Shown here one piece after another: positions 14,073-35,619 of a DNA stretch of 64,000 nt; position 1 is the first letter of the stretch; each line of letters begins with the position of its first letter. This DNA is from Pseudaestuariivita rosea (GTDB lineage: Bacteria; Pseudomonadota; Alphaproteobacteria; Rhodobacterales; Rhodobacteraceae). The position numbers were made by a program, and so were the translations under genes. Under the pieces are notes generated by a model. It made no database searches and had not been told where the DNA came from. It saw nothing but the letters and a program-made list of their open reading frames with translations. Location: the NCBI RefSeq assembly GCF_017592335.1, contig NZ_JACNMP010000002.1, positions 209,973 to 273,972 of the forward strand, in the 5' to 3' direction.

Positions 14073-14117
14073 GCAGGCTATACCCGCTTGCTCAAACGCC
14101 CGATGCAGGATGTGACA

Positions 14118-14678: not shown

Positions 14679-14788
14679 CCAGCGCACCGTTTATGCTGAA
14701 GTCGGAGTTGCCGTTCAAGGATGACATCCTTAAGGTACTCCGATGCTTCAAGGGTACGCAAAGCCGATGGAAGGTCGGTCTCATCTTC

Positions 14789-19147: not shown

Positions 19148-20413
19148 CTATTGTGATGTTTGTGCGCCCGGACCAAGCGCCTGGCGGGTGCGGGCCCTGC
19201 GCAATTCATGCAATGCACGCACGCCGTAAATATATCCACAGATCAGCATGATGCTGGTGACCGAAAAATGGGTAAAGGCCGGAACCTCGACCGCGCCTGT
19301 GACAGCTTTGACGAAGATGAAACTGGCGAAAAAAGCCGCCTCGGCGGTGGCGGCACGCAGTGCCCAGATCATACATAGAACCAGCCCACCCAGCAATATC
19401 CACATCTGGATACCCGCACCGATCACACCACCTTCGACCCAGGCTGCAATCAGCATGTTGTGAAAGTTGAAGCCGTTGCGTTCCTCAATCCCGAACATCG
19501 CCCAAAGATGTTCGGCCGAGTTATGCCCCTGTACCCAAAACGCCTGATATCCCACTCCGAATATCGGGTTTTCGCGAATATACTGCAGCCCGACGGCCCA
19601 GATATCGGTACGCCCGGTCAGGGTTGTGTCCTTTCCGGTTTCTTCAAGCACGAAGCCCGCGATCGTATCTTGCAGGGCGATGGCGGCGATCACACCCAGG
19701 ATCAGGATCAACCCCGTCGCTGTCAGGATCACGAACTTGGCGCCCGCCGAAAAGCGATACAGGATCAACAGAAGTGGTATCAGAACCAGCCCGGGGATGG
19801 TCAAAAGGGTCTGACCGACCGATTGTGCCCCGACCAGCAGTCTTAGTCCTAAAAGCAGGGCCAAGACCCCCACAACGCGCAGCCAGCGCGCCGCGCGGCG
19901 GTCCATCGCGACGGCCAGGGCCACGATCACAAAGGTCGACATGGCGCCACCGAATGCGTTCTTGCTGCCAAAGATCCCCAAAAGCGCGCCATCAAAACGT
20001 GTTTTGCCGATGGCGACACTCAGCAATGCCGCCAAACCGAAACCGGCAAAAACGACATACATCATACGCCGCGGTCCCAGGCGATGGGCCATCACAATAG
20101 CGATGGCGACCGTCACGCCAAGCTGCAGCGCATGGCGAAATGTCACACCTGGATAAAGGGACCAGGCCATGCTGATACCGGCATAGATCGGCAAAAGCAG
20201 CACGGCCCAGTGTGTCATCCAGGCATTATAGCTTTGGCGCGGCCACAAAAAGATCATGGCCATGCCAGACAGAAGAAAGACCAACACGGCCAGCCGACCC
20301 ACCATCGGAACCAGCAGCAGCGGGGCCAGAACACCAAAGCTTAGCAGGGTGACCGGGCAAACATCATAGATCCGTTGCGGTCTATGTTGATATGTCTGCC
20401 CAAGTGACGCCAT
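19148..20413 (-). CDS. exoQ: Exopolysaccharide polymerase, ExoQ/O-antigen-ligase-like
   Basis: Inner-membrane protein of 421 residues with about ten to eleven hydrophobic segments and the large periplasmic loop of the Wzy/WaaL (PF04932) family. The family motif appears as DTTLTGRTDIWAVGLQYIRENPIFGVGYQAF, and a HNMLIAAWVEGG histidine region follows. ExoQ polymerises succinoglycan repeat units in Sinorhizobium; the neighbouring ExoK, ExoP, ExoM, ExoA and ExoL-like genes support this rather than an O-antigen ligase role. Confidence 0.78.
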   Translation of the reverse strand: MASLGQTYQHRPQRIYDVCPVTLLSFGVLAPLLLVPMVGRLAVLVFLLSGMAMIFLWPRQSYNAWMTHWAVLLLPIYAGISMAWSLYPGVTFRHALQLGVTVAIAIVMAHRLGPRRMMYVVFAGFGLAALLSVAIGKTRFDGALLGIFGSKNAFGGAMSTFVIVALAVAMDRRAARWLRVVGVLALLLGLRLLVGAQSVGQTLLTIPGLVLIPLLLILYRFSAGAKFVILTATGLILILGVIAAIALQDTIAGFVLEETGKDTTLTGRTDIWAVGLQYIRENPIFGVGYQAFWVQGHNSAEHLWAMFGIEERNGFNFHNMLIAAWVEGGVIGAGIQMWILLGGLVLCMIWALRAATAEAAFFASFIFVKAVTGAVEVPAFTHFSVTSIMLICGYIYGVRALHELRRARTRQALGPGAQTSQ

Positions 20414-20452: not shown

Positions 20453-21244
20453 TTAATCGCCCCCGCGCAATTTGCACATCACACTTTCTTCGAACTGACA
20501 TCGGTCGCTCAGACGGGTGTAGGCGATCCAGTCGATTTTCATGATCGCAGGGTGGCGCAGATCGTTGAACTGACCCATCCACTCGACCAGTGTTTCAGTA
20601 CCCCAGTGGCTGGCGAAAATCTTCTGCGGTTCAACGGGCAAGTTGTTTCCACGCGTCTGATGCACCAGAGTGCCGTTGATGTACCAGCGGATCTTGTGCG
20701 GTGTCCAAAGAATGGAATAGACGTGATAGGCCTGATCGGTCGAGGGCGATATGGGCACTTTGGTTCCGTTCTTGGGCTGACCGTTCACATAGGTGTTGAA
20801 TTCCACCATACCGGTGTCTTTGGTCAGGATCTCGACGTCAATCTCATCCCAACGCGCGCCCTGACTTGGGCCGATATAGGTAAAGAACGCAGCGTTCAGG
20901 CCCGACCCAGTGTCTGTTTGAATGCGCGCTTCATACAGGCCATATCCATACCGCTGTCTTGTGCTGATCTCGGCGCATTCATAGTCAAGTTTGCCGTTGG
21001 ACGCAGGGGCGTATTGCAGATGCAGTTTGCCATTGGCGATCTTCACGCGATCGCGGTTCCAAAGGCAGTTCTGGTATTCGCCGTTGCGCCATCCGTCCGA
21101 GATGTACCAATGGCTTTCATCAAGCGTGTTGAAGTCTTCCTTGAACGATTTGCCCAATCCATCGGCCTGAACCGACAGTGCGCCAAGCGCCAGTGAAAGA
21201 GTCGCCACGACCCACCCCCTGACATGGTTTTTCACAGTAAACAT
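20453..21244 (-). CDS. exoK: Family 16 glycoside hydrolase, ExoK-like
   Basis: Secreted endo-glycanase, 263 residues from MFTVKNHVRGW, with a signal peptide (cleavage near VQA-DGLG). The GH16 catalytic motif is DEIDVEIL, holding the nucleophile and acid/base glutamates around the aspartate, and W-rich substrate residues are present. In Sinorhizobium ExoK cuts nascent succinoglycan to give low-molecular-weight polymer. The open frame extends 13 codons upstream, but GAGGTGA just before the ATG at 21242-21244 favours the shorter form. It is 39 bp upstream of exoQ on the same strand. Confidence 0.85.
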   Translation of the reverse strand: MFTVKNHVRGWVVATLSLALGALSVQADGLGKSFKEDFNTLDESHWYISDGWRNGEYQNCLWNRDRVKIANGKLHLQYAPASNGKLDYECAEISTRQRYGYGLYEARIQTDTGSGLNAAFFTYIGPSQGARWDEIDVEILTKDTGMVEFNTYVNGQPKNGTKVPISPSTDQAYHVYSILWTPHKIRWYINGTLVHQTRGNNLPVEPQKIFASHWGTETLVEWMGQFNDLRHPAIMKIDWIAYTRLSDRCQFEESVMCKLRGGD

Positions 21245-21557
21245 AGTCACCTCATACATTGCTGGAACAACGTGCCTAAGCACATGGGTCTTATTTGGGG
21301 CGTCATCGATTCCGTCAAAAGTGACATAGGGTAAACTGTTTCATATTCGGCATAAAACTTCCGACGTGGTGCAAATTTTATGCAATCTCGCATCAATGCC
21401 ATCATCTTGCCGGTAAATAGCCGCAGAAAATTAACGTTTGATCAGCGATTGGCTGCTGCACCTGCAGTGTGGCCCTTGCATTGTTGCCTTGATCAGTGGT
21501 CATGTGCAGTGCATTTCGATATCATTTGTATTTCGCGGACGCAGGGTAAGGCAACGC
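21245..21557. other. Divergent promoter region exoK / glycosyltransferase
   Basis: A 313-bp gap between divergently transcribed genes. It must hold promoters for both sides, but I cannot pick out convincing -35/-10 pairs. No small open frame with a ribosome-binding site was seen. GGGTAAGG at 21543-21550 serves as ribosome-binding site for the gene at 21558. Confidence 0.5.
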
Positions 21558-22856
21558 ATGATCGGCGCAACCAGACAGACCGTCACCGGCCAGGTCCCGC
21601 AGGTTTCGGTGATCATGGCAAACTATAATGGTGCGTCCTTTATCGAGGCGTCGATCCAATCCGCTTTGCAGCAAACCATCCAGAATATCGAGGTGATCGT
21701 GGCCGATGATGCCTCGACCGACCGCAGTATCAGCATCGTCAAAGGGATGTCCGACAGCCGGATACGCCTTTTGCCAGCTATTCAGAACGGCGGGCCAGGC
21801 GCTGCGCGCAACAGGGCCATCAAGGCCGCGCGGGGCAAATGGCTGGCGATTGTGGATTCGGACGATCTGATGCACCCCCACCGGCTGGAACGGCTGATTG
21901 GGTATGCCGAAAAACTGGGTGTTGATGCGGTTGCCGACGATCAGATTTGCTTTTCCGACGAAACAGGTGCCGAAGAGCAGTCTTTGTTCGGTATGCTTTT
22001 GCCCGATCCGATCCGATCGATCACGCCCGCCTTGATGGCGCAAAGCAGCAGTCAGGGTCCGGCAGTGACCAGCCTTGGTTTTATGAAGCCGGTGTTGCGC
22101 TGCGACAGTTTGCAACATCAGTATCGGACCGATATCCGGATCGGCGAAGACTTCGATCTTTACATGAGATATCTGGCTGATGATGCCAGGGCCGTTTTGA
22201 TCGATGAACCGCTTTACTTCTATCGCCGCCATACCGGATCAATTTCGCACCGCTGGTCGACGGACCACATAAAAACGATGATCCGCTGTAACGATGACCT
22301 TTTGGCTGCGGATCTTGATCTAGATGCCGATGCCATACAGGCGCTGCATGCCCGCACAGCCCGGCTAATGCGCGCTTTGCGGTTTGAGGATCTGGTCCAT
22401 GCCATAAAAACGCGCAACGTGTCCGCCGCCGGGCAGCTTCTGCTGAAACATCCCGTGCTTTTCGCGAACCTGACCCGGGCCATGAAGTCCAGATTGAACC
22501 GCAGTCGGACGCTATCGACTGAAAAACCGGCGCCAAAGAAGAAACATCTGCTGGCCTTGCCGCAGGGGGATATCCCGGAATACACGCCCGTCGATCCGCA
22601 AAAAAATCGTGAGCCCTGGCCCCTGATCCAAAGTCTGGCCAATACGACCATTGATCCGGGCGGTCAGATCACTGCGATCGGCCCCAGTGGTGTTTACGCT
22701 TTGGGATACATTCTGCAGCGGCCAGACACTATCGACATCATTCCAGACGGCCCTTGGCCGGATGCTATTCGCAGGCAGATGGCGGTTGCCGGACACCATC
22801 CGCCTGATGACACCCCCACCAAAACCGAAGATACAGCAGAGCCGCTTCATGTCTGA
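21558..22856 (+). CDS. Family 2 glycosyltransferase
   Basis: Predicted cytoplasmic glycosyltransferase, 432 residues. The GT-A core is at the N-terminus: VSVIMANYNGASFIEASI, VIVADDASTDRSI, and the DxD-like IVDSDDLMHPHRL. The C-terminal ~200 residues are not recognised and are polar and alanine-rich. The frame is open 40 codons upstream, but that part does not resemble a glycosyltransferase; the ATG at 21558 has a GGGTAAGG site and gives the usual short lead-in. Its last codons overlap the next glycosyltransferase by 8 bp (ATGTCTGA). Confidence 0.82.
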   Translation: MIGATRQTVTGQVPQVSVIMANYNGASFIEASIQSALQQTIQNIEVIVADDASTDRSISIVKGMSDSRIRLLPAIQNGGPGAARNRAIKAARGKWLAIVDSDDLMHPHRLERLIGYAEKLGVDAVADDQICFSDETGAEEQSLFGMLLPDPIRSITPALMAQSSSQGPAVTSLGFMKPVLRCDSLQHQYRTDIRIGEDFDLYMRYLADDARAVLIDEPLYFYRRHTGSISHRWSTDHIKTMIRCNDDLLAADLDLDADAIQALHARTARLMRALRFEDLVHAIKTRNVSAAGQLLLKHPVLFANLTRAMKSRLNRSRTLSTEKPAPKKKHLLALPQGDIPEYTPVDPQKNREPWPLIQSLANTTIDPGGQITAIGPSGVYALGYILQRPDTIDIIPDGPWPDAIRRQMAVAGHHPPDDTPTKTEDTAEPLHV

Positions 22857-23832
22857 ACAGATCAAACCGCTGGTTCATATTCGGACCCCGACCTATAAAC
22901 GCCCCGTGGCACTGAAACGCTGCCTTCAGTCCCTGATTGACCAGACCTGGGATCACTGGGTTTGCGACGTCTACGACGATGACCCCGAACAATCCGCAGC
23001 CACGGTGGTGCAGGACCTGGGGGATGACCGCATCCGCTATACCCCGAACCAGCCACAGAAATTTGCGTCGAAAAACATCGACGGATGCTTTAGCCGCGCC
23101 AACCCGCATGGGGCGCAATATTTCTGCTCGGTCGAGGATGACAATCTGATCCTGCCGCGCTTTATCGAAGACAACATCAGGATTTGCAGGGAATATGGGG
23201 TTGAGCTGGTCTTTCGCAATCAGCTGATCGAACACGACAGCGGAACGGAAAAGGCGCGGTTCAGCGATCAGGGCATTCTGGAAGAAAAATTTCGCGAAGG
23301 TGTTTATGACCCCGATCTGTTTCGCCTTTCCATCCTGGCCGATATCGGCGTGTCGAACGGCGGCATGTTCTGGTCTGACAACGCAAAGACCGATCTGGAA
23401 ATCGGTGTGAACTGTACGGCCACCTTGCAGGAATACATGCGCACCTATGCGATCTGTGAACCGATTTATGTCGCGCTTGAACCCTTGGCCGTCTGGGCTG
23501 AAAACGGCGAACAGACGACACGCGATCTGGGCAATGCGGCCTCCTACCTGCGGCGGGAACTGGATCTAAAACGGGCGATCCAGAAACTGCAACGCAAGGC
23601 GTGGCAGCGGGGGGGCAAACCCGATCCACAGCATTTTATCAGCACCGATGAGTTTGCCTTTGATCCCAGTTTGCGCGCCACAGGTTTGGTCAAGGGGCTG
23701 ATTTCTTTTAAAACGGGTCCCGCCCTGGGCCTGCGGCGCAAGCTTGAACTGATCGCGCGAGGGCTGTTGATACAGGTCGTCGGGCGCACCGAACCGGATC
23801 TGGACCGGTTTATCCTGCAAAGGGGTGACTAG
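22849..23832 (+). CDS. Family 2 glycosyltransferase
   Basis: 327 residues starting MSEQIKPLVHIRTPTYKRPVALKRCLQSLIDQ, a GT-A fold opening, with DVYDDDPEQ and the metal-site region FCSVEDDNLILPRFIEDN. No membrane segments. Translationally coupled to the preceding glycosyltransferase by an 8-bp overlap. Its stop overlaps that of the convergent nucleotidyltransferase gene by 4 bp. Role in the exopolysaccharide pathway is inferred from position. Confidence 0.82.
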   Translation: MSEQIKPLVHIRTPTYKRPVALKRCLQSLIDQTWDHWVCDVYDDDPEQSAATVVQDLGDDRIRYTPNQPQKFASKNIDGCFSRANPHGAQYFCSVEDDNLILPRFIEDNIRICREYGVELVFRNQLIEHDSGTEKARFSDQGILEEKFREGVYDPDLFRLSILADIGVSNGGMFWSDNAKTDLEIGVNCTATLQEYMRTYAICEPIYVALEPLAVWAENGEQTTRDLGNAASYLRRELDLKRAIQKLQRKAWQRGGKPDPQHFISTDEFAFDPSLRATGLVKGLISFKTGPALGLRRKLELIARGLLIQVVGRTEPDLDRFILQRGD

Positions 23833-25004
23833 GCCGTCTTGGCCTGAGCGGCCGCGCGTCTGGCCTCGATCAAGCCGGCGGTTTTCAGACAAAGGGCCGA
23901 TGCGGCGGCCCATCCGGCCTCAGATGTGTATCTGACGGGCGATTTGCCGCAAAGCCGCCACAGCACTTCGCGCCGCCTGGGCCAGCCGGTTTTGACGACC
24001 CAGGGCGTTTGCACCATGGACAACATTTGACCTGTATCAATTTCTGGCAGTGGGTCAGGCAGATCAAGCCCCCGGATCGGATCGAAAACACTGCGGCGCA
24101 TCTGATCGGCAAAGGCCAATACAGGCAGCAATCCCTGGTGGTCTGCTGCCTGCATCAATCGTGTCGCCTGGCTGGGGGTCTGTGCGACCAGTGCAGCGTG
24201 CAGGTCGCAAATATTGCCGACGCAGGGTTCGTGATTGAAAAAGGCCTTTACCACACCAATTGCCGTCAAAAGCGTCAGATAGGTCATCGACAAAACCGGT
24301 ATCGGCCCTTCCGGCTGCTTTGCCATTACGGTATTCGCCAGAAACTCATTCAAATGCAGGGGCGCTGGGGATCCGGCCTGCTGCACACGGTGATGGATAT
24401 CAACGACGGTGAGCTGATCCTCATGTGTCAGGTGTCTTTCGCCCAGAAAGGTGTCTGTCCAATGATTGATCGGGGTGTCGGGGGATTTAAAGCCCGCGTC
24501 AGTCAACAGCCGAATGGATCGACCATAATCCTGTGACGCCACCAGAAGATCAACGTCACCCGATGGTTTCTGATAGGCGGTTCCGTAAAGCGCCAACTGC
24601 TGCATGGGACCTTTCAGAAAAACATGCGGCACAGCGGCCGCTCGCATAAGGTGCGAAATGCCATGGCTGTGGCGCAGGCTGCGGTTGTTCATGGTGACAG
24701 TTCGGAAACGATAAAGCGCCACATCATCAGTGATGTCTGACACATTTATGCCATGTTTGCGCAGCGTATCATCAACCAGCAGAGTAGTCTTATTCAACCG
24801 GCTGATTTCATAAAGCGATTTTGGATCGATTCCATCAATACTAAGACAAGTGTTCGACACAACCGTGAAAAAGCGTCGCATGATCACGCGATGAATTGCG
24901 CTTTCTGCCGCTATTTGCCTGCTTTCAATATTCGCAATCGTATTTTTGTTGAAAACCAAACCACTTACTCCGATGCGCGGCTTTTGACGCGCAGGTACAG
25001 CCAT
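23829..25004 (-). CDS. PF14907-type nucleotidyltransferase family protein of the lasso cluster
   Basis: 391-residue protein with the uncharacterised nucleotidyltransferase signature HVFLKGPMQQLALYG and KPSGDVDLLV (catalytic aspartates D150 and D152). The rest is helical and rich in alanine. Genes of this family accompany lasso peptide clusters that also encode an HPr-kinase-like kinase, as in the paeninodin cluster, where the role is unclear. It is divergent from the precursor gene with 274 bp between. No clear ribosome-binding site precedes the ATG at 25004; an internal ATG at 24881 (MRRFFTVVSNT) is an alternative start. Confidence 0.78.
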   Translation of the reverse strand: MAVPARQKPRIGVSGLVFNKNTIANIESRQIAAESAIHRVIMRRFFTVVSNTCLSIDGIDPKSLYEISRLNKTTLLVDDTLRKHGINVSDITDDVALYRFRTVTMNNRSLRHSHGISHLMRAAAVPHVFLKGPMQQLALYGTAYQKPSGDVDLLVASQDYGRSIRLLTDAGFKSPDTPINHWTDTFLGERHLTHEDQLTVVDIHHRVQQAGSPAPLHLNEFLANTVMAKQPEGPIPVLSMTYLTLLTAIGVVKAFFNHEPCVGNICDLHAALVAQTPSQATRLMQAADHQGLLPVLAFADQMRRSVFDPIRGLDLPDPLPEIDTGQMLSMVQTPWVVKTGWPRRREVLWRLCGKSPVRYTSEAGWAAASALCLKTAGLIEARRAAAQAKTA

Positions 25005-25191
25005 TCTGCGCGAATCTCCGCCTGAATGTGATGTATCAGATTTGAAATGTGCGGAAATGGAAAATTTGAATGATTAAAAAATATGCAAATAAGGCAAAAT
25101 AAGGCAATTTTACGCTGATATCGCCGTAATTAATCTGCCGCAGATTAGTTTTCCACAGACATTTTTTGGGAAACAATCATGAATCGTTGAC

Positions 25192-25247
25192 TTTGACGCA
25201 AGGGAAGCCAATCCGTTAAAGGCGCGTCAAAGAAATGACGTGCGTCA
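25192..25247 (+). promoter_or_regulatory. Four TGACG/CGTCA half-sites upstream of the lasso precursor
   Basis: TTTGACGC (25192-25199) is mirrored by GCGTCAAA (25224-25231), a perfect 8-bp inverted repeat, and a second pair TGACG (25236-25240)/CGTCA (25243-25247) follows immediately. All four share the core GACG or its complement. They end 31 bp before the precursor ATG, so they overlap the likely promoter or 5' leader. An operator for a dimeric regulator, or an RNA hairpin, are both possible; no regulator gene lies in the cluster. Confidence 0.5.
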
Positions 25248-25278
25248 CTAAATGTTTTAACGTGTAAGGAGTTTAAAC

Positions 25279-25434
25279 ATGGTGCAAATGAAAGCTGATA
25301 AGCGCGACTACGAAGCGCCGAAGCTTGTCGCACATGGGTCGATCGAAAAGATCACCCACGGTGGGTCTCACGGTGGTGTCACCGACGCCAACTTCACCCG
25401 TGGGACACCGATCGACGATATTACTTTTTCATAA
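25279..25434 (+). CDS. Lasso peptide precursor (A gene)
   Basis: 51-residue RiPP precursor with an AAGGAG ribosome-binding site (25266-25271) 7 bp before the ATG. The leader (1-27) has the B1-recognition motif Y11-E-A-P14-K-L16 and G20-S-I, and ends T26-H27, giving the conserved threonine at the penultimate leader position. The predicted core is residues 28-51, 24 residues: it opens GGSHGGVTD, so Gly1 and Asp9 can form a 9-membered macrolactam ring; the tail is ANFTRGTPIDDITFS with Phe12 and Arg14 as possible plugs. It ends in Ser, the site phosphorylated in paeninodin. The ring and tail assignments are inferred from the family; the sequence features are seen directly. Confidence 0.92.
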   Translation: MVQMKADKRDYEAPKLVAHGSIEKITHGGSHGGVTDANFTRGTPIDDITFS

Positions 25435-25473
25435 AGTGATTTAGTCGGACGTATAGATCCACATATTAAAACA

Positions 25474-25501
25474 GCGGGGCGCGGTGCCGTCCGCGCCCCG
25501 C
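25474..25501 (+). promoter_or_regulatory. GC-rich hairpin between precursor and processing genes
   Basis: GCGGGGCGCGG (25474-25484), loop TGCCGT, CCGCGCCCCGC (25491-25501): a perfect 11-bp stem 40 bp after the precursor stop and 26 bp before B1. No T-run follows, so it looks like a partial terminator or an mRNA-stabilising 3' end that gives more precursor than enzyme mRNA. Similar hairpins occur after the A gene in other proteobacterial lasso clusters. Confidence 0.8.
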
Positions 25502-25527
25502 GGTCTGTATAGAGTCAAGGTGTTCTT

Positions 25528-25806
25528 ATGGATATTGATACAAAGACTTTTTATAAAATTTCTTCGTCGGCGATGGGGTGCGAGCTACAGGATGGCTGGG
25601 CCATTCTGGATATGAATACAAACCAGTATTTCAGCTTGAACCCCGTCGGTCGCACGGTTTGGCAGACCCTCACCGATGGCGCTGACTTTGACCAGATCTG
25701 CAAGGCGGTTCAGGATGACTTTAACGTCGACGCCGATACCTGCCGCAACGACATCAAACAGCTGCTGGATGACCTGGAACGTCAAAAGCTGATCGAGGTC
25801 CGGTAG
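25528..25806 (+). CDS. Lasso peptide B1 protein (PqqD-like leader-binding RRE)
   Basis: 92-residue PqqD-type RiPP recognition element. It reads FYKISSSAMGCELQDGWAILDMNTNQYFSLNPVGRTVWQTLTDG, the beta-rich winged-helix core that binds the precursor leader, then a helical tail (DDLERQKLIEVR). In lasso biosynthesis the B1 protein delivers the leader, through its YxxP motif, to the B2 peptidase. It is the first enzyme gene after the precursor and hairpin; AAGGTG precedes its ATG, and B2 starts after one base. Confidence 0.92.
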   Translation: MDIDTKTFYKISSSAMGCELQDGWAILDMNTNQYFSLNPVGRTVWQTLTDGADFDQICKAVQDDFNVDADTCRNDIKQLLDDLERQKLIEVR

Positions 25807-25807
25807 G

Positions 25808-26230
25808 ATGGACCGGCGCGTGAAAGCCGGTTGGTACAAGGTGAAACAACTGTCCGAGTGTTTTTTCACCCTGCTTTGGGTGCGCGCGCTTTTGTTCACC
25901 GGCCGCTTCGAACGGGTTCGGTCCCACATTGCGCGGCACGAAACCAACGGCCCGCCCGAGCTTTGGCAGCAGCGTATGGTCGCCTGGGGTATTCCGAAAA
26001 TGGCGCGCTTTGTACCCGGTGCGACCTGTCTGACCCAGGCCATGGCAGGTCAATACATGCTGGCGCGCCGCGGTTGCGAGACCATCTTGAGATTGTCCAT
26101 TGATGGCACTCAGGGGGATGACTTGCGCCCGCATGCCTGGCTGATGTCAGGCCACGTGATCGTGCTGGGCGGTAAGTCCGATATGTACCATGCACATCGT
26201 CAATTGATCGATTTCAAGGTGCGGGGATGA
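25808..26230 (+). CDS. Lasso peptide B2 protein (transglutaminase-like leader peptidase)
   Basis: 140-residue PF13471 cysteine peptidase that removes the leader. The catalytic cysteine is C74 in PGATCLTQAMAGQYML and the histidine is H109 in DDLRPHAWLMSGHVIVLGG; the usual acidic third residue is not obvious, D125 being a candidate. N-terminal residues 1-45 are helical with LLWVRALLF. Its TGA overlaps the cyclase start (ATGA). Split B1 and B2 genes are usual for this clade. Confidence 0.92.
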   Translation: MDRRVKAGWYKVKQLSECFFTLLWVRALLFTGRFERVRSHIARHETNGPPELWQQRMVAWGIPKMARFVPGATCLTQAMAGQYMLARRGCETILRLSIDGTQGDDLRPHAWLMSGHVIVLGGKSDMYHAHRQLIDFKVRG

Positions 26231-28089
26231 GCGGCTTTCTGGCCATATACAACCCGAAGGGTGCCCCTGTCGCTGCGCCCAGGCTGACCGAACTTGCCGC
26301 CGGATTGGACCATCGCGCTGTCGATGGCCGTAATATGACAATCGATGGGCCGGTGGGGTTGGCGCATTTATGGTTCAACACGACCGATCAGACGGGGCCG
26401 GGGCCTTATGAGCTTGGCGATCCACATCTGCTGCTGACGCTGGACGCGCGACTGGATGATCCTTTTGATCTGGCGCGAAAGCTGGGCGTCACGACCGCCG
26501 ATGACGCAACCCTGATCCTGCTGTCCTATCGCAAGTGGGGGGCTGACTGTGTGCATCACCTGCGCGGCGATTTTGCCTTTGTGATATGGGATAAATCCGC
26601 CCAACAGCTTTTTTGCGCCCGTGATCCGTTCGGGGTCAAACCGTTTTTCTACACTTCTCAGGATGACCAATTCATAGCGGCCAGTGAACCCGGCCCGATC
26701 CTGTCTGCCATGGGGGGCCTGCACCCCGATCAAAACTTCATCGCTGATTTTCTGGTGGGCCATCTAAGCGATGATGCTCGGACAGGCTTTGCCGATGTGA
26801 CCCGCCTGCCGCCTGCACATACGCTTACTGTAACAAAGGGCTGCGCAAAGCTGTCGCGCTATTGGGCGCTTCGGCAAACCGAACTTCAGATCGATGACGC
26901 CTCCGAACAATTGCGTCAGCTGTTGGATCAGTCGGTGAAACGACGGATGAAGGGGCGCGACGTTGGCGCCATGCTCAGCGGCGGGCTGGATTCGTCATCA
27001 ATCGCATGCCTTGCGCAGCGGTATCGCTCGGATCTGCCCGTATTTTCGTTGATCTTCAACGATCCCGATCTGGACGAACGCCCGTATATCCAGCAAACGC
27101 TCGATCAATATGCGGTCCGGCCGCATATGGTCCAGCCAGGGCAGGGTGGGGCCTTTGCCGGGGGGGGGCGTCTTTTGGGCGAACAGGCTTATCCCTTTCT
27201 GGCGCCGGGGCATGTGACCTCACGCCCGATCTACGCTGCTGCGCGCCGGTCTGGTGTTCGGGTCTTGCTGGACGGCCACGGCGGGGATGAGGTCATCGGC
27301 CACGGCTTCGAACGCCTGTCTGAGCTGGCCCGCGCCGGACATTGGCGAAAGCTGTGGGTTGAGGCCGCAGGCACCGCCGGGCTCGATGGTCTCAGCCCCT
27401 GGGCCGTCTTTTCAAGCGCCCTGATGACGCACACCCCGTTGTCGCGCGTCAGCGGATGGACCAGCCGTTTCCGCAGAACCACCGCCGCTGTTCCCGCCTG
27501 GCGTCGCCTGTTGCGGCAGGATTTCACCCATGACAATGGCATCATCGACCGCCTGCAAGCCCGGCAAAAGGCCATCGGGTCCACGCCCTTTGACCGCTAT
27601 CGCGCCACCCTGCAGGACCCGCTGATCCCCCACGCGTTTGAGGTACTGAACACCTGCGCCGCGACCCACGGCGTTGAAACGCGGTTCCCTTTCTTTGATC
27701 TGGACCTGGTGGAATTCTGCGCCAGCCTGCCAGCTTCGGACCGGTTGAACAACGGCTGGACCCGGTGGGTGTTGCGTCAGGCGATGACAGATATCCTGCC
27801 CCAAGCCGTGCAATGGCGCCGGTCCAAGACGGATTTTACGGCCCATATGCTGCGTCAGATGCTGGATCAGGATGGCGATATCCTGCGCGATATCGTGTTT
27901 TCTGACTGCACGCTGTTTAACTATGTCGAGGCCACGGCGCTGCGTCAGACCTATGACCGCGTGACCCGGAACCGCCACAAGGCGGACCGCAACGACATCT
28001 TCGGTCTGTGGCGCGCCACCTGGGTCGGGCTATGGTTGCGGCAGCTTGAAAGCCAAGCCGCAACGCCCAAACGACAGGTGCCCGCATGA
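26227..28089 (+). CDS. Lasso peptide macrolactam cyclase (C protein, asparagine-synthetase-like)
   Basis: 620-residue AsnB homologue that adenylates the Asp side chain and joins it to the core N-terminus. The N-terminal glutaminase-like domain starts MSGFLAIYN, lacking the catalytic Cys2, so it cannot release ammonia, as expected for a lasso cyclase. The ATP-pyrophosphatase loop is SGGLDSS at 251-257, with LLDGHGGDEVIGHGF further on and the R-rich QWRRSKTDFTAHMLRQ near the C-terminus. Coupled by ATGA overlaps to B2 upstream and the kinase gene downstream. Confidence 0.93.
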   Translation: MSGFLAIYNPKGAPVAAPRLTELAAGLDHRAVDGRNMTIDGPVGLAHLWFNTTDQTGPGPYELGDPHLLLTLDARLDDPFDLARKLGVTTADDATLILLSYRKWGADCVHHLRGDFAFVIWDKSAQQLFCARDPFGVKPFFYTSQDDQFIAASEPGPILSAMGGLHPDQNFIADFLVGHLSDDARTGFADVTRLPPAHTLTVTKGCAKLSRYWALRQTELQIDDASEQLRQLLDQSVKRRMKGRDVGAMLSGGLDSSSIACLAQRYRSDLPVFSLIFNDPDLDERPYIQQTLDQYAVRPHMVQPGQGGAFAGGGRLLGEQAYPFLAPGHVTSRPIYAAARRSGVRVLLDGHGGDEVIGHGFERLSELARAGHWRKLWVEAAGTAGLDGLSPWAVFSSALMTHTPLSRVSGWTSRFRRTTAAVPAWRRLLRQDFTHDNGIIDRLQARQKAIGSTPFDRYRATLQDPLIPHAFEVLNTCAATHGVETRFPFFDLDLVEFCASLPASDRLNNGWTRWVLRQAMTDILPQAVQWRRSKTDFTAHMLRQMLDQDGDILRDIVFSDCTLFNYVEATALRQTYDRVTRNRHKADRNDIFGLWRATWVGLWLRQLESQAATPKRQVPA

Positions 28090-29000
28090 CCCGGATCTAT
28101 CGCGCCTTTGGTTTGACCCTATCGTCCGACATCTTTCTGCCCGAACTCGTCCCGTCGCCCCAAGGCGCCATCGACCTGACCATTCGCCGCGGACCCGTCG
28201 CGGCAGATCACCTGACGGGTCAAAATTTTGCACAGGATTTTGGGGACGATCACGCGGTGCTTTACTGGAAAACCGTCGGGGCCTTCCATATCGATGCCCA
28301 AGGCAATATCACCGTCGATGCCTTTCCTAACCTGTCCGACGATCTGATCGCCTTTCCGCTTTTGGGCCCTGTGATGGCCATCGCGCTGCAATACCGCGGG
28401 GCCTTCGTGCTGCATGCCGGAGCTGTTTCTATCAATGATCAGGCCGTCGTCTTTATGGGGGACAAGATGGCGGGCAAATCGACAACCACAGCGGCCTTTG
28501 TCCGTGCCGGTCACAAGATGCTGTCCGACGATCTGGCGCCGATCCGGTTCGACACCGCAGGCCAGCCCGTGATCGCGCCCGCCTTTGCGCAGGTCAAACT
28601 TTCGGACGACGCGCGCCAAGCCATCGCCTTGTCAGATGCTGTCGCACGACCGGACGTGCACGAGGTGATCGAGAAAAAGCGCCAGCTGCTGTCGTCGGCC
28701 TTTGAAAACCGCACAATGCCGCTGGCCGCGCTTTATGTGCTGGAACGCGGAACCCAGGCCCAGATCACAACGCTTCAGGGCCAGAATGCCCTGGCCATGC
28801 TGCTGCGCTTTGCCTATGCGCCGCGGTTCGGCACAGATTTCTTGTCGGGCCCGGTTGCAAAGCGTCATTTTGAAATGGCCGCCAGTCTGGCGCGGCAAGT
28901 GCCGGTTTGCATCCTGCAGGTCCCGACAGGTCTGGATAAACTGCACCAGGTGGTCGATCTGTTACAGACGCGGGTACCGAAACGGGGGCAGGTGGCATGA
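28086..29000 (+). CDS. HPr-kinase-like kinase of the lasso cluster
   Basis: 304 residues with the HPr kinase P-loop fold: VLHAGAVSI (H110), Walker A GDKMAGKST at 125-133, and LSDDLAPI (D148-D149) as metal and base residues. In the paeninodin cluster a homologous kinase phosphorylates the C-terminal serine of the precursor. The precursor here also ends in Ser, so the same reaction is predicted. Some homologues may act on other substrates. Overlaps the cyclase stop and exporter start by ATGA. Confidence 0.85.
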   Translation: MTRIYRAFGLTLSSDIFLPELVPSPQGAIDLTIRRGPVAADHLTGQNFAQDFGDDHAVLYWKTVGAFHIDAQGNITVDAFPNLSDDLIAFPLLGPVMAIALQYRGAFVLHAGAVSINDQAVVFMGDKMAGKSTTTAAFVRAGHKMLSDDLAPIRFDTAGQPVIAPAFAQVKLSDDARQAIALSDAVARPDVHEVIEKKRQLLSSAFENRTMPLAALYVLERGTQAQITTLQGQNALAMLLRFAYAPRFGTDFLSGPVAKRHFEMAASLARQVPVCILQVPTGLDKLHQVVDLLQTRVPKRGQVA

Positions 29001-30748
29001 CTGGCACAACCGGTCAGATCATATCCTTTTCCCGCTACGTCCGGCAGGGGGGCGGGCGCCGCTGGTGGATCGCGCTGACCCTATTGTGCCTGGGCCAGCT
29101 GACCGAAGGTATATCGCTTTTGCTGCTTCTGCCGATCGTCGGCATGACCGTGGGTCAGGCGCTGGTGCTGGATCTGGGGCAGTTTCAGATCGCGGGTTGG
29201 ACGCTGCCGGATGTTCAGATCAGTCTGGCGGTTTTGCTGATGTGCCTTGTCGGGCTGATCACGCTGCAGGCCTTATTCAATCGCTATAAATCGGTCTACC
29301 TTGGCACGCTGATAGCCGATTTTTCCAATCGTGTCCAAAGTGACCTGTTCCGCCGCATTGGCGACAGCGACTGGAACGCCTTCGTGCGGCTGCGCGCATC
29401 AGATCTGGATCATGCCATGACGGATCAGGTGCAGCGGGTTCAGGCCGCCGGTTTTGCCTTGCTCAGCATTCTGCAAACCATCGTGATGCTGGTGATCTAT
29501 GCGGGCATCTGCCTGATCGTATCGGTCCCGATGACGCTGTTTTCGCTTGGGTTCGGCATTCTGGCCTTTGTCCTGCTGTATCCCTTTCGCCGTCAGGCCA
29601 CTCTGTTCGGCCAACAGATCATCGCCAATCGCAAGGCGCAGTATCGCACCGTGGCCGAGTTGCTGGGCGCCTTGAAGCTGGCCAAATCGATGAACCTGGA
29701 ACAGCAGTACTACGATCAGATGGATCAGGTGTTGCACAAGGGGCGCGGCGACGGCGTGCGTTATATCCGCCGCAGCACTTTGGGCACCGCGCTTTTGCAG
29801 ATCGCGACGGCAGCCTGTGCGGCCGGGTTTGTCTATGTCGCGCTGGCCGTGCTGCAGGTGCCTTTCGCGGAACTTGTTGTGCTGATCCTGGTTCTTTTAC
29901 GCGTCGCGCCGCGCTTTCTGAACCTGCAAATGCAGGCGCAACAGGTGCTGACGAACATCGGCGCCTTTACCGCGCTGCAACAGTTGAAATCCGACCTGAA
30001 GCCAACCGCGACACGCCCCGATCCTGATCTGCCAGCCGTGCCGCGCCCGCAGGAAAGCATCGCGTTGCGTGATATCACCTTCGGGTATGACGACCGGCCG
30101 ACGCTTGCCGATATAACACTGACCCTGCCGGTCGGGTCAATCACATCGCTGATCGGGCCTTCGGGTGCGGGCAAAAGCACGGCCGCGGATATCTTCATGG
30201 GGCTTTTGCGCCCCACAACGGGCCATCTGGCGCTGGACGACACGCCCCTGACCGACGCGCATATCAAAAGCTGGCGCGATCAGATCGCCTATGTCCCGCA
30301 AGACACATTTTTGTTCAACGACACAGTGCGGTTCAATGTCGCCCTGGGCCGCCCGCACGCGACGGACGCTGAAATATGGCACGCGCTTGACCGCGCGCAG
30401 GCCAGGGGATTCGTGCAAGACCTGCCAAAGGGGCTTGATACCGAAATCGGTGACCGCGGTGCCCTGCTGTCAGGGGGGGAACGGCAGCGGCTTGCCCTGG
30501 CGCGGGCGCTTTTGCGCAACCCGGCGTTCCTGATTTTGGACGAAGCCACCAGCGCGCTCGACCCGCAAAATCAGATGATCATTGGCGCCACGATCAAGGC
30601 ATTGCGCGGCGAAACAACCGTGCTGATCATCGCACATCAGATTTCGCTGGCACGCATCGCTGACCAGATGTTTGTGCTGGAAGACGGCGTGGTCCGCCGC
30701 GTTGAAAAACCCGAAGATGGGTCCGGATTAAGGAGTGTAAATCTATGA
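28997..30748 (+). CDS. Lasso peptide ABC exporter (D protein)
   Basis: 583-residue half-transporter with a six-helix membrane domain (about 1-310) and a C-terminal ATPase: Walker A GPSGAGKST at 387-395, signature LSGGERQRLALARAL at 491-505, Walker B AFLILDEATSALD, switch histidine in IIAHQISLAR. There is no N-terminal C39 peptidase domain, consistent with leader removal by B2. Last gene of the lasso operon; it would export, and give immunity to, the mature peptide. Its stop is 6 bases inside the end of the convergent small membrane-protein gene (overlap 30743-30748). Confidence 0.92.
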   Translation: MTGTTGQIISFSRYVRQGGGRRWWIALTLLCLGQLTEGISLLLLLPIVGMTVGQALVLDLGQFQIAGWTLPDVQISLAVLLMCLVGLITLQALFNRYKSVYLGTLIADFSNRVQSDLFRRIGDSDWNAFVRLRASDLDHAMTDQVQRVQAAGFALLSILQTIVMLVIYAGICLIVSVPMTLFSLGFGILAFVLLYPFRRQATLFGQQIIANRKAQYRTVAELLGALKLAKSMNLEQQYYDQMDQVLHKGRGDGVRYIRRSTLGTALLQIATAACAAGFVYVALAVLQVPFAELVVLILVLLRVAPRFLNLQMQAQQVLTNIGAFTALQQLKSDLKPTATRPDPDLPAVPRPQESIALRDITFGYDDRPTLADITLTLPVGSITSLIGPSGAGKSTAADIFMGLLRPTTGHLALDDTPLTDAHIKSWRDQIAYVPQDTFLFNDTVRFNVALGRPHATDAEIWHALDRAQARGFVQDLPKGLDTEIGDRGALLSGGERQRLALARALLRNPAFLILDEATSALDPQNQMIIGATIKALRGETTVLIIAHQISLARIADQMFVLEDGVVRRVEKPEDGSGLRSVNL

Positions 30749-31000
30749 AACTTTAGTATTTTCCGAATTTCTGGCCGGGCCGGGAACCATTGTCGAAGGT
30801 CTGCGTTTTGGTTTTGCTTCGACCGACGTGCCGAACATCGACCACAGGATAATCAAGGCTAGATATCCAAACTGAAGGGCGACCAAAGTAATCAGGACCC
30901 GCGCCGTGACCACACCGACCGTGGCACCCGAGGATATGGACCATGCGCCAACGGCAATCACGCTGATAGCGAGTAAAAGCAAAAACGCCGTGATCCGCAT
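30743..31000 (-). CDS. Small membrane protein, possibly ExoX/SyrA-like exopolysaccharide repressor
   Basis: 85 residues from MRITAFLLLLAISVIAVGAW, with two membrane segments (about 2-18 and 27-52) and a basic cytoplasmic tail. This size and topology, and the VALQFGYLALIILW second helix, resemble the exopolysaccharide production repressor family (ExoX, SyrA), small proteins that inhibit ExoY at the membrane. It sits between the lasso exporter and the ExoP-like gene. The frame is open 12 codons further up, but GGAGGAG and GGAGAA lie just before 31000. The family call is tentative. Confidence 0.5.
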   Translation of the reverse strand: MRITAFLLLLAISVIAVGAWSISSGATVGVVTARVLITLVALQFGYLALIILWSMFGTSVEAKPKRRPSTMVPGPARNSENTKVS

Positions 31001-31220
31001 TTCTCCGTACTCCTCCCTGGTCTCATTATGTGTCATATGGCCCTCGGTTTTTTGTTATACCATCTGCGCCACGACTGAGATGTCGTCGACGTTATGCAAC
31101 ATTCTGCCATCAGGCAAGGACATTGCCATGGTCAGACCTTGACTTTTCTGGGTCATTTGTTGGGCAGCTGTGATAATTTTAGCCGTTCAGACCAGTATTT
31201 CAGCAGATGATTAAAGCTTG

Positions 31221-33551
31221 CTAGGCTTTATGATAGTTCGCGTAGGTCGAAATATAGGCCTCGCCCGTATCTGAGGACACATAGCTTGGCAGCTGCTCCA
31301 TATCGACTTTGTTCAACACCACGCCCAGGCTTTTCTGCCGAATCTTCGGATTCAGCCGCAACTGCTGACGCAAAACGGCGCGCGGGGTCTGCCCCCAGGC
31401 GGCCACCAGCAGGAATTTATGCACAAAGGGCTCAATGACTTTCGCGTCCACCACAGGGCTTAGCGGGGGCAGATCGATGATCACATAGCTGTATTTCTTC
31501 TGCGCGTCTGTCAGCAGTGTCGTCATCCGTTTCGACGTCAGCAATTCGGTATAATGAGACAGCCGTTCATTGGTGAAACAGGGTATGATATGCAGTTTTT
31601 CAACGTCATGGCCCAGTGTCACCTGATCGACCGTGGCATCACCGATCAGATAGCTTAGCAGCCCCTTTTCGGACGGAATTTTCAGCCCGCGCGTCAGGCC
31701 GGGGTTGCGGATATCACCGTCAATCAACAACGTCTTGTGCCCCGACATCGCCAGCAGCAGCGCCAGGTTTGATGATACCGTCGATTTACCCTCGCCCGGC
31801 AGGGCCGAGGTCACGCCAAGCACCTTGCAACCACTGGTGTCATCACCCGACACCCCAAGCGCAAAGCGGATATTGCGCAGCGTTTCGGCAAAGGCCGACC
31901 GGGGTTCTTCCAGCACACGCGATGCCATTTTGAAGGTCAGGGACGGCGGTGGAGCCTTTTTCAGGCTACGTCGCCGAAACATCTGCTTCAGCCCATCGAA
32001 ACGGCCACGTTTTTGTGCGGGCAGGGGAAGATAGCCCAAAAAGTTCTGCTCGACCTCATCCTCAATCTCGTCGCCGGTGCGGAAAAACCGTTCACGGAAT
32101 TCGCGCATAGCCACAATGCCCAACCCCAGCAAAAGGCCCAGAACAAGGCTGCTCATCAAAACGCTGGACTTGCGTGGCGCGGCCACATCGCGCGGCGGCA
32201 CGGCATCGGCTAGAATGCGGGCATTGATGCGGGGTGCGTTTTTCTGTTGCAGAAGGGCCTCATAGCGACTGCGCAGGTTTTCATAGCTGACCGACTGGGC
32301 CTCGGCATTCTTTTCCATGTTGATCAGTTCGACCTGCGCCTGCGACGCGGCATTCGTCTGGGACGTCGCCTGATCCACACTGTTGCGAATGGCATCGACG
32401 CGGGCCTGTTCGATGGCGGCCTGCGCGCTGACCTCATTGAAAATCCGGGCCAGTTCCTGGCGCAGTACATCAGACATTTCAGCCTGTTGTCGGGTCAATA
32501 TCTGCGCCTGTGGATGATCTGCCCCGAACTGTTCGATAACATCGTCCAAACGGTTTGAGATATTCAGATACCGTTCTTCCAACTCGGCTAGACGATTATC
32601 ATCAGTGGTGTTGACCACAGCGCGGGGGTCGATCACGCCTTCATTCGCCTGTTCAATTAGGTTTTCATAACGGTTGGCCAGGGCCATGGCGCGCGCGGCA
32701 TCGGCCTCGGCCAGGTTCAGCTGTGTATTCAACTGATCCAGACGCTGTTCGCTGACCAACTGCCCCTGTGTGGCAGTCAGGTTGTTAGCTGATCGAAATC
32801 GTTCCACAGCCAGCGCGGCCTGTTGCGAACTGACCGCCAGTTCCGCCAATTGATCCTGCATCCAGCTGATGGTGCGCTCGGTTGCTTCCAGGTTGGCGTT
32901 CAACTGATCATCCAGATAGGCCTGCGCAAAGGCGTTAGCGACATTGGCCGCCAGATTGGGGTCGTGCGACACATATCCGACGCTTAGAACATAACTCTGC
33001 CCAACCCGCCCGATGCGGATCGATTTGCGCAGATGTTGCGTGATCTTGTCGCTGACAAAGGCCTGTCTTTGAGCGTCGGAAAACTCGATCACAGGGCCCG
33101 AGGACGCCCGATCGGGGATCATCGCCCCAATCATCGACCGCAATCCGCCAATCGTTGATCCGATCGCTGAACTGGGCGGGTTCAGAAAAACCTGATCTTC
33201 ATAAAGCGCCAGATCCGCAACGACCTGCCGCGCAATCGGGGCCGAGCGCATGATATGAATTTCGTTCTGAATGCCGGCATCATCGCGGATATCACCATCG
33301 CTGACGGCGGCCTGCTGGATGACCTCGTTCAGGCGATTGTTCACCAGAACCTGCGCTTCGGCGTAGTAAATCGGGGGGGTTGTCGCGATATAGAAAATAC
33401 CCGCAAAGATACCCAGAATTGCGCAAAGTCCGATGACCTTTTTTTGCCGTTTAAGCCGGATCAGCAGGCGTTCAAAACTGATCGGCTCGGCCGCATCGCC
33501 GGGCTGGATCACGTTCGCACTTTCATTAAAGCGAAGGCCAATGCGGGTCAT
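31221..33551 (-). CDS. exoP: ExoP/Wzc-like polysaccharide co-polymerase and tyrosine kinase
   Basis: 776-residue inner-membrane protein that sets chain length and drives export of the polysaccharide. A Wzz domain follows the first membrane segment (about 37-57), then a long coiled-coil periplasmic region (about 200-420), a second membrane segment near 470-490, and a cytoplasmic BY-kinase with Walker A LPGEGKST, Walker A' LLIDGDIRNPGL and Walker B YVIIDLPPL. The tail SDTGEAYISTYANYHKA is a short tyrosine cluster for autophosphorylation. Head of the exoP-M-A-L-like gene group, or last in transcription order after them. Confidence 0.85.
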   Translation of the reverse strand: MTRIGLRFNESANVIQPGDAAEPISFERLLIRLKRQKKVIGLCAILGIFAGIFYIATTPPIYYAEAQVLVNNRLNEVIQQAAVSDGDIRDDAGIQNEIHIMRSAPIARQVVADLALYEDQVFLNPPSSAIGSTIGGLRSMIGAMIPDRASSGPVIEFSDAQRQAFVSDKITQHLRKSIRIGRVGQSYVLSVGYVSHDPNLAANVANAFAQAYLDDQLNANLEATERTISWMQDQLAELAVSSQQAALAVERFRSANNLTATQGQLVSEQRLDQLNTQLNLAEADAARAMALANRYENLIEQANEGVIDPRAVVNTTDDNRLAELEERYLNISNRLDDVIEQFGADHPQAQILTRQQAEMSDVLRQELARIFNEVSAQAAIEQARVDAIRNSVDQATSQTNAASQAQVELINMEKNAEAQSVSYENLRSRYEALLQQKNAPRINARILADAVPPRDVAAPRKSSVLMSSLVLGLLLGLGIVAMREFRERFFRTGDEIEDEVEQNFLGYLPLPAQKRGRFDGLKQMFRRRSLKKAPPPSLTFKMASRVLEEPRSAFAETLRNIRFALGVSGDDTSGCKVLGVTSALPGEGKSTVSSNLALLLAMSGHKTLLIDGDIRNPGLTRGLKIPSEKGLLSYLIGDATVDQVTLGHDVEKLHIIPCFTNERLSHYTELLTSKRMTTLLTDAQKKYSYVIIDLPPLSPVVDAKVIEPFVHKFLLVAAWGQTPRAVLRQQLRLNPKIRQKSLGVVLNKVDMEQLPSYVSSDTGEAYISTYANYHKA

Positions 33552-33712: not shown

Positions 33713-34630
33713 TCAATTCGCAGTCGTATCACTTAGCCCATAGGGCACAACGGTCTTCCCACCCAGCATCGCGCCTAGAACGCCAATATGCAACATCCCT
33801 CTGAGATACCACGCATTTTTCCGATGCGCGATGGGGTACATCAGCAACGCCCCAGCCATGCAAAAGCCCGCCTTGGCGACAGACAGAGCCATCGCCTTGA
33901 TCCGTCCGGACAGTGGTCGGTCCATGTAATAGACTGCCGCCTGCGTTTGCCCCATCCGTCTGCGCCGTTCAGCCAGCCAGGACAATTGCGCACGATGTTC
34001 GGGCACGACCTCGGTCACCAGCGCTTGCGCCGCATAGGCAAACGCCACACCGCGATCAAAAAGCGTGCTGAAGAAATCGGTGTCTTCACCACCGGTGCGG
34101 CCCTTGTTCAGATCAAACCTCAGCCCGTCAAAGGCAGCTTGGCCGCGATCCAGCAGCACGTTGCAGGTATAACCGGTTTTGATCTGGCCTTTGACCCAGA
34201 CAGGGCGCGTGTTATGGAATGCCCCCCGCTTCATCCAGCCCGGCGCACTGTCCAGATAAGTGGCATCGACCGGGCCCAGCACGACCCCTGCGCCCGTGTC
34301 GCGATGGGTCTGCACCAGATGCACCAGCCAATCGCGCGTCACGACCTCGTCATCATCGATGAACGCCATCAGCGGCGCGTCGCTTTGGTCCAGTGCACCA
34401 TTCCGCGCGATCGAGATATTACCAGCGGGCCGATGCAGATACACCACCGCAAAGGGCGCCGTTTCGGCATAGCTCTGTACCGCAGCTTTTGCCGTCGGTT
34501 CCGTATCATTATCCACGACGATCACGCGGACCTCATGCCCCTCGGGCACCTGCAAGGCATTCAGACTGGCCAGAGCATCCACCATATGCGGGCGGCGAAA
34601 GGTGCACATGCAGATATCGATCAGGGTCAT
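33713..34630 (-). CDS. exoM: Family 2 glycosyltransferase, ExoM-like
   Basis: 305 residues. GT2 motifs: DICMCTFRRPHMVDALASL, VIVVDNDTEPTA and LMAFIDDDEVVTRDWL (DxD), with GGEDTDFFSTLFDRG for acceptor binding. A hydrophobic C-terminal region (about 245-290) probably associates with the membrane. In succinoglycan synthesis ExoM adds the fourth sugar, a beta-1,4-glucose. Overlaps the upstream ExoA-like gene by 4 bp. The exact sugar step is inferred from family and neighbours. Confidence 0.75.
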   Translation of the reverse strand: MTLIDICMCTFRRPHMVDALASLNALQVPEGHEVRVIVVDNDTEPTAKAAVQSYAETAPFAVVYLHRPAGNISIARNGALDQSDAPLMAFIDDDEVVTRDWLVHLVQTHRDTGAGVVLGPVDATYLDSAPGWMKRGAFHNTRPVWVKGQIKTGYTCNVLLDRGQAAFDGLRFDLNKGRTGGEDTDFFSTLFDRGVAFAYAAQALVTEVVPEHRAQLSWLAERRRRMGQTQAAVYYMDRPLSGRIKAMALSVAKAGFCMAGALLMYPIAHRKNAWYLRGMLHIGVLGAMLGGKTVVPYGLSDTTAN

Positions 34631-35619
34631 TGCGCGCCCACCGTCTGCACAGGGTCACAACCCGTCGCCGTTTGCAGCAACCGCCACCAGAAGCCCGCCG
34701 ACCAGGCCGCATGCATCACCGCCGCCGACACACCCGTCAGGATCAGCGCCGCCGATACATGTTGCACCGCAATGTAAACCCCGCCCAAAAGGCACGCCAC
34801 CAGCCAGATCAGGGCGGGCAGGGCGGCTAGCATAGTGATCGGCGTCAACACCATCAGCAAAAGGCACGGCACCACCATCACCACGATCAACTGCCGGGCC
34901 TGGGGCTTCATGCGATGTTTCAACATCGTCCGTGCCCGTCCCTTGCCATAGTTGAAATACTGCCGCGCCAGGGCATCCATGCTTTTGCGCGGAAAATAGG
35001 TGACGAATGTCTTGTTCGTCAGCCAGATCTGATGCCCCGCCTGAACCAGACGCCAGTCCAGCTCGGCGTCCTCGTTATGGCTGAAACGTTCATCATACCC
35101 GCCCACCTGGCGAAACGCGGCGATCTGCATCAGCGCGTGATGACCATGAACCACATAGTCCCCCGTCGGACACGCACGATGCTTTGACCCGCCGGTCCCC
35201 AGGGGCGAATTTTGCACCGCGGCGTTGGCCCCCTGAACCAGGCCCGCGCCTTCGGCGACCATGCCAACAACGACACTGGCCGCACCCGTTGCCTTGGCCT
35301 CTTCCAGCAAAATGGCGCAGTAATCTTCGGGATAGGCGCTATGGGCATCGATGCGGATCAGCACATCATGATCAGCGCCAAACCGGTCCACGGCCAGATT
35401 GATGCCCGCACTTTGAATGCGCTTGGGGTTGTCCAACAGGATGATCTGTTCATGCTGTTCGGCCATCCCCGCCACAACATCCCGCGTGCCATCGGTGCTG
35501 CCGCCGTCGGCCACGACAATCTGCCCGCCGTTTTGCGTAACAAAGGGCAAAAGCTGCTGCAAAAGCGGCTTGATATGCGCGATTTCGTTCAGACAGGGAA
35601 TAACGATCAACGCGCGCAT
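34627..35619 (-). CDS. exoA: Family 2 glycosyltransferase, ExoA-like
   Basis: 330 residues. GT2 core: ALIVIPCLNEIAHIKPLL, IVVADGGSTDGTRDVV, LIRIDAHSAYPEDY, and the acceptor motif DERFSHNEDAELDWRLVQAGH. Two to three membrane segments lie at the C-terminus (about 240-315), as in ExoA, the beta-1,3-glucosyltransferase for the third sugar of succinoglycan. It is 7 bp downstream of the ExoL-like gene. Confidence 0.78.
   Translation of the reverse strand: MRALIVIPCLNEIAHIKPLLQQLLPFVTQNGGQIVVADGGSTDGTRDVVAGMAEQHEQIILLDNPKRIQSAGINLAVDRFGADHDVLIRIDAHSAYPEDYCAILLEEAKATGAASVVVGMVAEGAGLVQGANAAVQNSPLGTGGSKHRACPTGDYVVHGHHALMQIAAFRQVGGYDERFSHNEDAELDWRLVQAGHQIWLTNKTFVTYFPRKSMDALARQYFNYGKGRARTMLKHRMKPQARQLIVVMVVPCLLLMVLTPITMLAALPALIWLVACLLGGVYIAVQHVSAALILTGVSAAVMHAAWSAGFWWRLLQTATGCDPVQTVGAQ

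Follow-up and report, generated by a model that had tools for sequence, protein, structure and literature searches.

The window, a 64,000-nucleotide stretch of DNA from Pseudaestuariivita rosea, carries a lasso peptide cassette at positions 23829-30748, situated inside an exopolysaccharide locus. From sequence we infer a functional cassette of the proteobacterial kinase class, together with each of its reactions, their sites and the final product. The lasso peptide is probably phosphorylated at its C-terminal Ser. The consistent placement of such cassettes in exopolysaccharide loci and their frequency in Mesorhizobium were not found described in the open-licence literature.

Layout of the cassette and the predicted core peptide

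Gene N is divergent and is followed by A-B1-B2-C-K-D in tight order, the neighbouring genes from B2 through D overlapping by a few bases. Every gene is intact and the catalytic residues are conserved. The features of the cassette are the following.

23829-25004, (-): N, PF14907 nucleotidyltransferase (Pfam E 2e-22), divergent from A
25279-25434, (+): A, precursor of 51 amino acids (lasso leader domain NF033521, 25.3 against a cut-off of 19)
25474-25501, (+): 11-bp all-GC hairpin between A and B1 (fold z-score -3.4)
25528-25806, (+): B1, PqqD-like leader-binding protein, the RiPP recognition element (RRE) (PqqD E 4e-18; Tyr of NQYF conserved)
25808-26230, (+): B2, leader peptidase (NF033537 above cut-off; Cys74 and His109 conserved)
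26227-28089, (+): C, lasso cyclase, Asn-synthetase-like (PF00733 E 1e-56; SGGLDS motif conserved)
28086-29000, (+): K, peptide kinase of HprK fold (His-Lys-Asp-Asp residues; HprK/PEPCK fold of the model)
28997-30748, (+): D, ABC exporter (PF00664 and PF00005)

The set comprises an RRE (B1), a Cys protease (B2) and an Asn-synthetase-like cyclase (C), as in class II lasso systems. A first-pass annotation of this DNA had listed a 51-residue precursor, a split B1/B2 pair, an exporter and a divergent PF14907 gene in close order, all of which are found in place by the coordinates of the open reading frames (ORFs) and by the Pfam and NCBIfam matches. It had also described a cyclase lacking Cys2; the N-terminus of C indeed reads MSGF, and the relatives of C likewise lack this cysteine. 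The nearest NCBIfam model to C is that of the lasso cyclase, NF033535, at 515 bits, under the cut-off of 525.

The leader of A occupies positions 25279-25359 and the core 25360-25431, ending in the TCA codon of the C-terminal Ser at 25429-25431. The start of the core was set by the leader rule Y(-17)xxPxL(-12) plus Thr(-2). The predicted core, GGSHGGVTDANFTRGTPIDDITFS, is 24 residues long, and its ring would join Gly1 to Asp9. Class II lasso precursors have a YxxPxL leader motif, Thr(-2), Gly1, Asp or Glu at positions 7-9 and no Cys; A has YEAPKL, Thr(-2), Gly1 and Asp9, and lacks Cys. In an alignment of the 49 distinct precursors of the kinase's clade, A included, Asp9 was found in all 44 cores of 24 residues. 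The computed mass of the lasso peptide is 2403.1091 Da and that of its monophosphorylated form 2483.0754 Da, in agreement with the earlier values of 2403.11 and 2483.08 Da. Two and three phosphates would give 2563.04 and 2643.01 Da, and one phosphate with one or two hexoses 2645.13 or 2807.18 Da.

Strong hairpins are found at the A-B1 position in most relatives examined. The hairpin between A and B1 is a probable processing or attenuation element, which would raise the precursor relative to the enzymes.

In lasso systems of this family B1 presents the precursor, B2 cleaves it, C cyclises the core and D exports the product; the substrate of the kinase is the linear precursor. By analogy, B1 of the window would bind the YxxPxL leader and present the precursor, and K would phosphorylate the terminal Ser (Ser24) while the precursor is still linear. 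B2 would cleave after Thr-His, freeing Gly1, and C would close the Gly1-Asp9 ring around the tail. N would act on the phosphoserine to give a capped phospho-lasso peptide as the mature product, and D would export it.

The probable phosphorylation site and its predicted cap

The first-pass annotation had called K HPr-kinase-like. The match at the sequence level is weak and below cut-off (21 bits against the 33.3 of Pfam HprK PF07475; 18.2 against the 240 of TIGR00679), and a sequence search of solved structures with K gave no match, which weighs against the assignment. The fold and the active site, on the other hand, support it. Compared with the Protein Data Bank, the AlphaFold model of K (predicted local distance difference test, pLDDT, 94) resembles structures of the PEPCK/HprK fold (E values of 1e-9 to 1e-6), and His110, Lys131, Asp148 and Asp149 are invariant in all 58 aligned kinases, the Bradymonas kinase BsfK among them. 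BsfK is 22% identical to K and is placed outside K's clade, which includes Sphingomonadales kinases.

The last residue is Ser in all 49 distinct clade precursors, notwithstanding the divergence of their tails (..VPFDVFS, ..VLGALS, ..GPEDGMS). Residue 3 of the core is Ser in 15 of the 49; the others have Ala (17), Gly (13), Thr (1) or further residues including Lys, Asn and Trp. Since the terminal Ser is thus the constant one, and since BsfK lies outside the clade, the terminal Ser is the likely phosphate site. This assignment, drawn from conservation, is consistent with the homologous kinases of reviewed systems, which act at the terminal Ser. Reviews describe PadeK, ThcoK and SyanK as phosphorylating the last Ser of the precursor in its linear form, and ThcoK and SyanK as polyphosphorylating it (PMC9266682, PMC8498205).

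A different site, which the first-pass annotation overlooked, is the ring residue Ser3. This residue is present in the window core, and BsfK, whose cluster likewise has an adjoining N gene, targets core Ser3 (PMC10368454). K would then modify the ring as BsfK does, and the terminal Ser would be kept for some other reason. However, K's clade does not conserve Ser or Thr at position 3, as a BsfK-type kinase would lead one to expect, and the precursor of BsfK itself ends in Asp. Phosphorylation of Ser3 by K is therefore very improbable.

The two-metal nucleotidyltransferase signature of N (K131-G132, D150-x-D152 and D202) is invariant in 17 relatives. Its AlphaFold model (pLDDT 90) has the nucleotidyltransferase (NTase) fold and matches LnuA and MenT1 at E < 0.001, and ANT(2'') and FKRP more weakly. 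N is found at 81 of the 89 loci of the core clade, against 3 of the 46 loci with other HprK-like kinases; a PF14907 search of plasmids gave only 2 matches. As in the pseudomycoidin cluster, an N with an intact NTase active site lies beside the kinase cluster. PsmN, the annotated nucleotidyltransferase of that cluster, is described in reviews as decorating the phosphoserine with one or two hexoses (PMC9266682, PMC8498205). It appears reasonable, with some preference over other roles, that N caps the phosphoserine with a sugar or another phospho-linked group.

N could instead be a true nucleotidyltransferase, or a phospho-sugar or alditol transferase, in which case the cap would be a nucleotide or a phosphodiester-linked group and N would not be a hexosyltransferase. 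The resemblance of its model to the NTases LnuA and ANT(2'') and, weakly, to the ribitol-phosphate transferase FKRP speaks for this, as does a review's concession that hexosylation by PsmN could be indirect, via host enzymes (PMC9266682). PsmN, however, is the sole experimental precedent and yielded hexose adducts, and this alternative is somewhat less favoured, though a serious one.

The first-pass proposal of a phosphorylated lasso peptide thus holds in that the C-terminal Ser is the best supported site. Because PsmN hexosylates the phosphoserine and related kinases polyphosphorylate, the 2483 Da species may not be the final one.

Placement in exopolysaccharide loci

The exopolysaccharide surroundings were likewise overlooked by the first-pass annotation. 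The flanking genes were identified by Pfam and by synteny, for the upstream part with the other genome compared from the window's genus (G221) and with further genomes; the small ORF at the downstream border was identified by its conserved position and has no Pfam match.

19148-20413, (-): Wzy_C/O-antigen ligase
20453-21283, (-): GH16
21438-22856, (+): GT2
22849-23832, (+): GT2, bordering the cassette
30743-31036, (-): small ORF, 97 amino acids, downstream border of the cassette
31221-33551, (-): Wzz/Wzc-like
33713-34630, (-): GT2
34627-35619, (-): GT2
35627-36793, (-): GT4-like

Because these flanks consist of a Wzy_C/O-antigen ligase, GH16, GT2 proteins, a Wzz/Wzc-like protein and further glycosyltransferases, the cassette is situated inside an exopolysaccharide locus. 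The 97-residue border ORF is also present in G221, whose locus is empty, and adjoins D in many relatives, among them many Mesorhizobium loci. Elsewhere in the window, an IS21-type element (integrase core, IstB) and an RHS-repeat fragment lie at 13159-16759, upstream of the polysaccharide locus, and a 514-residue ORF at 48502-50046 looks foreign, with a low third-position GC content (0.49) and a weak DUF4365 match.

Kinase relatives are present in 24 of 395 genomes of the same family, K's clade comprising only the closest of these. A kinase-alignment search gave 80 named loci in Mesorhizobium, Rhodobacterales, Sphingomonadales, Caulobacteraceae and Hyphomonadaceae, nearly all of which carry N plus A-B1-B2-C-K-D, with N mostly divergent. 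Of 146 genomes of the genus Mesorhizobium, 103 carry a clade kinase. GH16, Wzy_C or Wzc markers flank 82 of the 89 core-clade loci and 2 of the 46 loci with other HprK-like kinases; counted per genus-level unit, over several alphaproteobacterial orders, they flank 21 of 25 and 2 of 33, respectively, although the profiles used to detect these markers derive in part from core-clade and family loci, a bias that favours the core loci. Pfam independently recovers UDP-glucose dehydrogenase, GH16, sugar transferase and polysaccharide export genes at the Mesorhizobium loci, and comparable genes at Rhizorhabdus and Brevundimonas loci.

Some loci outside the core clade have other arrangements. Four genomes (G678, G806, G903 and G740; e.g. 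loci L166, L174, L175, L179, L187-L189, L191 and L192) have up to six HprK-like kinases by PqqD-like and Asn-synthetase-like genes, an array that looks like multi-copy kinase RiPP cassettes. Small precursor-like ORFs, where found there, end in Ser; their counterparts at related non-core loci often have no acidic residue for the ring. At L155:7548-7670 a precursor-like ORF ending in ..DPSYS lacks Asp or Glu at positions 7-9; B1, B2 and K adjoin, and no cyclase was found. Sulfotransferase genes (L048:9041-9700 and L050:12175-13014) adjoin kinase-bearing lasso-type clusters on plasmids of Sulfitobacter and Thalassobaculum.

In G221 the polysaccharide locus is matched at 50-76% identity, but the cassette is missing. 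The matched parts of the cassette-bounding GT2 and of the small ORF are 27 bp apart, and no kinase of K's clade was found in this genome. At the corresponding polysaccharide site of another genome (G050, L096:4986-5774), a fragment of D, interrupted by an in-frame stop, adjoins an N fragment with stops; judged by their sequence, these remnants are a decayed lasso cassette. The borders of the window cassette have no repeats, and its GC content is the same as that of the flanks, with no odd composition. On the tree of three flanking glycosyltransferases the presence of the cassette switches at least 5 times. The empty site of G221 could be read as a sign of recent insertion, but the L096 remnants, the tight overlaps, the matching GC content and the repeat-free borders argue for an old residence with losses, although gain and loss are indistinguishable in the window's genus.

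A FastTree tree of the kinase alone placed the window K with Sphingomonadales (support 0.87), suggesting horizontal transfer. This was dropped, as a concatenated tree of C, K and D clusters the loci order by order and makes the window the sister of the other Rhodobacterales (support 95). Distances between the lasso genes correlate with those between the glycosyltransferases (Mantel r 0.88, p 0.0001, 15 loci), a correlation that may stem solely from shared host ancestry.

A picture consistent with these observations is that of an accessory module of the exopolysaccharide locus, which would be inherited along with the locus and often lost. The capped peptide would work with or in the polymer layer as a matrix-bound antibiotic, an anchor, a primer or a regulator. 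We offer a functional tie between peptide and polysaccharide as a hypothesis, possible but tentative. More speculative, and rather unlikely as it stands, is the proposal that a phospho-lasso peptide serves as a component of the exopolysaccharide system throughout a widespread family of Alphaproteobacteria: joined by N to a sugar or sugar-phosphate, it would be a glycoconjugate that primes, decorates, is anchored in or regulates the polymer. If this were true, such systems would be common in Mesorhizobium.

An equally tenable explanation is that the cassette merely resides in the polysaccharide locus, by hitch-hiking or because the site tolerates integration, and that its product is an ordinary antimicrobial or signalling peptide without a tie to the polymer. 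Lasso peptides are frequently antibiotics, and the repeated changes on the glycosyltransferase tree are in keeping with this. Two further points weigh against the functional tie, in addition to the marker bias and the possible effect of host ancestry. Since a few relatives (L048, L156) lie outside exopolysaccharide-type loci, the link is not obligatory, and since many loci of the same polysaccharide type have no cassette, the polymer does not require the peptide. Mere residence, however, has to be set against the recurrence of the nesting in several orders when cassettes with other HprK-like kinases are hardly ever found in such loci, the borders without repeats or odd composition, and the parallel divergence of lasso and glycosyltransferase genes. 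The cluster might also be silent or defunct: bsf, a broadly similar kinase cluster, yielded no product either in its own host or in heterologous ones (PMC10368454), and a promoter scan upstream of A, which leaves some promoter types uncovered, found no consensus. As all genes are intact and the active sites conserved, this is improbable.

The kinase-bearing lasso class has been known for about 10 years, and according to a review what the phosphorylation does still awaits clarification (PMC9266682). The repeated placement of these cassettes in exopolysaccharide loci is a first concrete lead to a role. A search of open-licence literature found nothing relevant on a lasso peptide tied to exopolysaccharide, succinoglycan or Mesorhizobium, an absence that carries little weight. 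Because most Mesorhizobium genomes carry the kinase, the question is approachable in tractable bacteria that are not pathogens, and the window genome with the cassette and the same-genus G221 without it form a natural comparison.

Comparison with known kinase-bearing systems

The best NCBIfam match of K is to the kinase of the HPr-rel-A cassette models (TIGR04352 kinase, TIGR04353 PqqD-like), at 36.5 bits, far under the 200-bit cut-off; K is not a member of that family. Paeninodin (PadeA/PadeK, Paenibacillus), with which the first-pass annotation compared the cassette, is a parallel in that a kinase likewise modifies the terminal Ser of a still linear precursor. The likeness does not extend to gene order: paeninodin, from another phylum and with another precursor, has the Firmicute order C-A-K-B1-B2-D (PMC5067487), whereas the window has that of the proteobacterial class.

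The bsf cluster of Bradymonas sediminis (BsfK/BsfN) likewise combines a kinase and a nucleotidyltransferase in a lasso cluster, and there B1 assists phosphorylation (PMC10368454). It differs in the phosphate on core Ser3, the precursor ending in Asp, Ile(-2) and the low identity of its kinase to K. Pseudomycoidin (PsmK/PsmN, Bacillus pseudomycoides) also has a kinase and an annotated nucleotidyltransferase, and its terminal Ser is, according to a review, (poly)phosphorylated and hexosylated (PMC9266682); its host is a Firmicute, unlike that of the window.

The proteobacterial kinase lasso clusters, for example SyanA/SyanK of Sphingobium yanoikuyae, share with the window the order A-B1-B2-C-K-D, the split B1/B2, an HprK-like kinase and a C-terminal Ser substrate (PMC5067487, PMC9266682, PMC8498205). 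The window has in addition the divergent upstream N and the exopolysaccharide setting, neither of which is mentioned in the accounts consulted. The parallels of SyanK with K and of PsmN with N are drawn from published descriptions and are provisional. The order A-B1-B2-C-K-D is that of the known proteobacterial kinase lasso class, described by 2016 (PMC5067487), and the window has its gene order, its His-Lys-Asp-Asp motif and a precursor ending in Ser.

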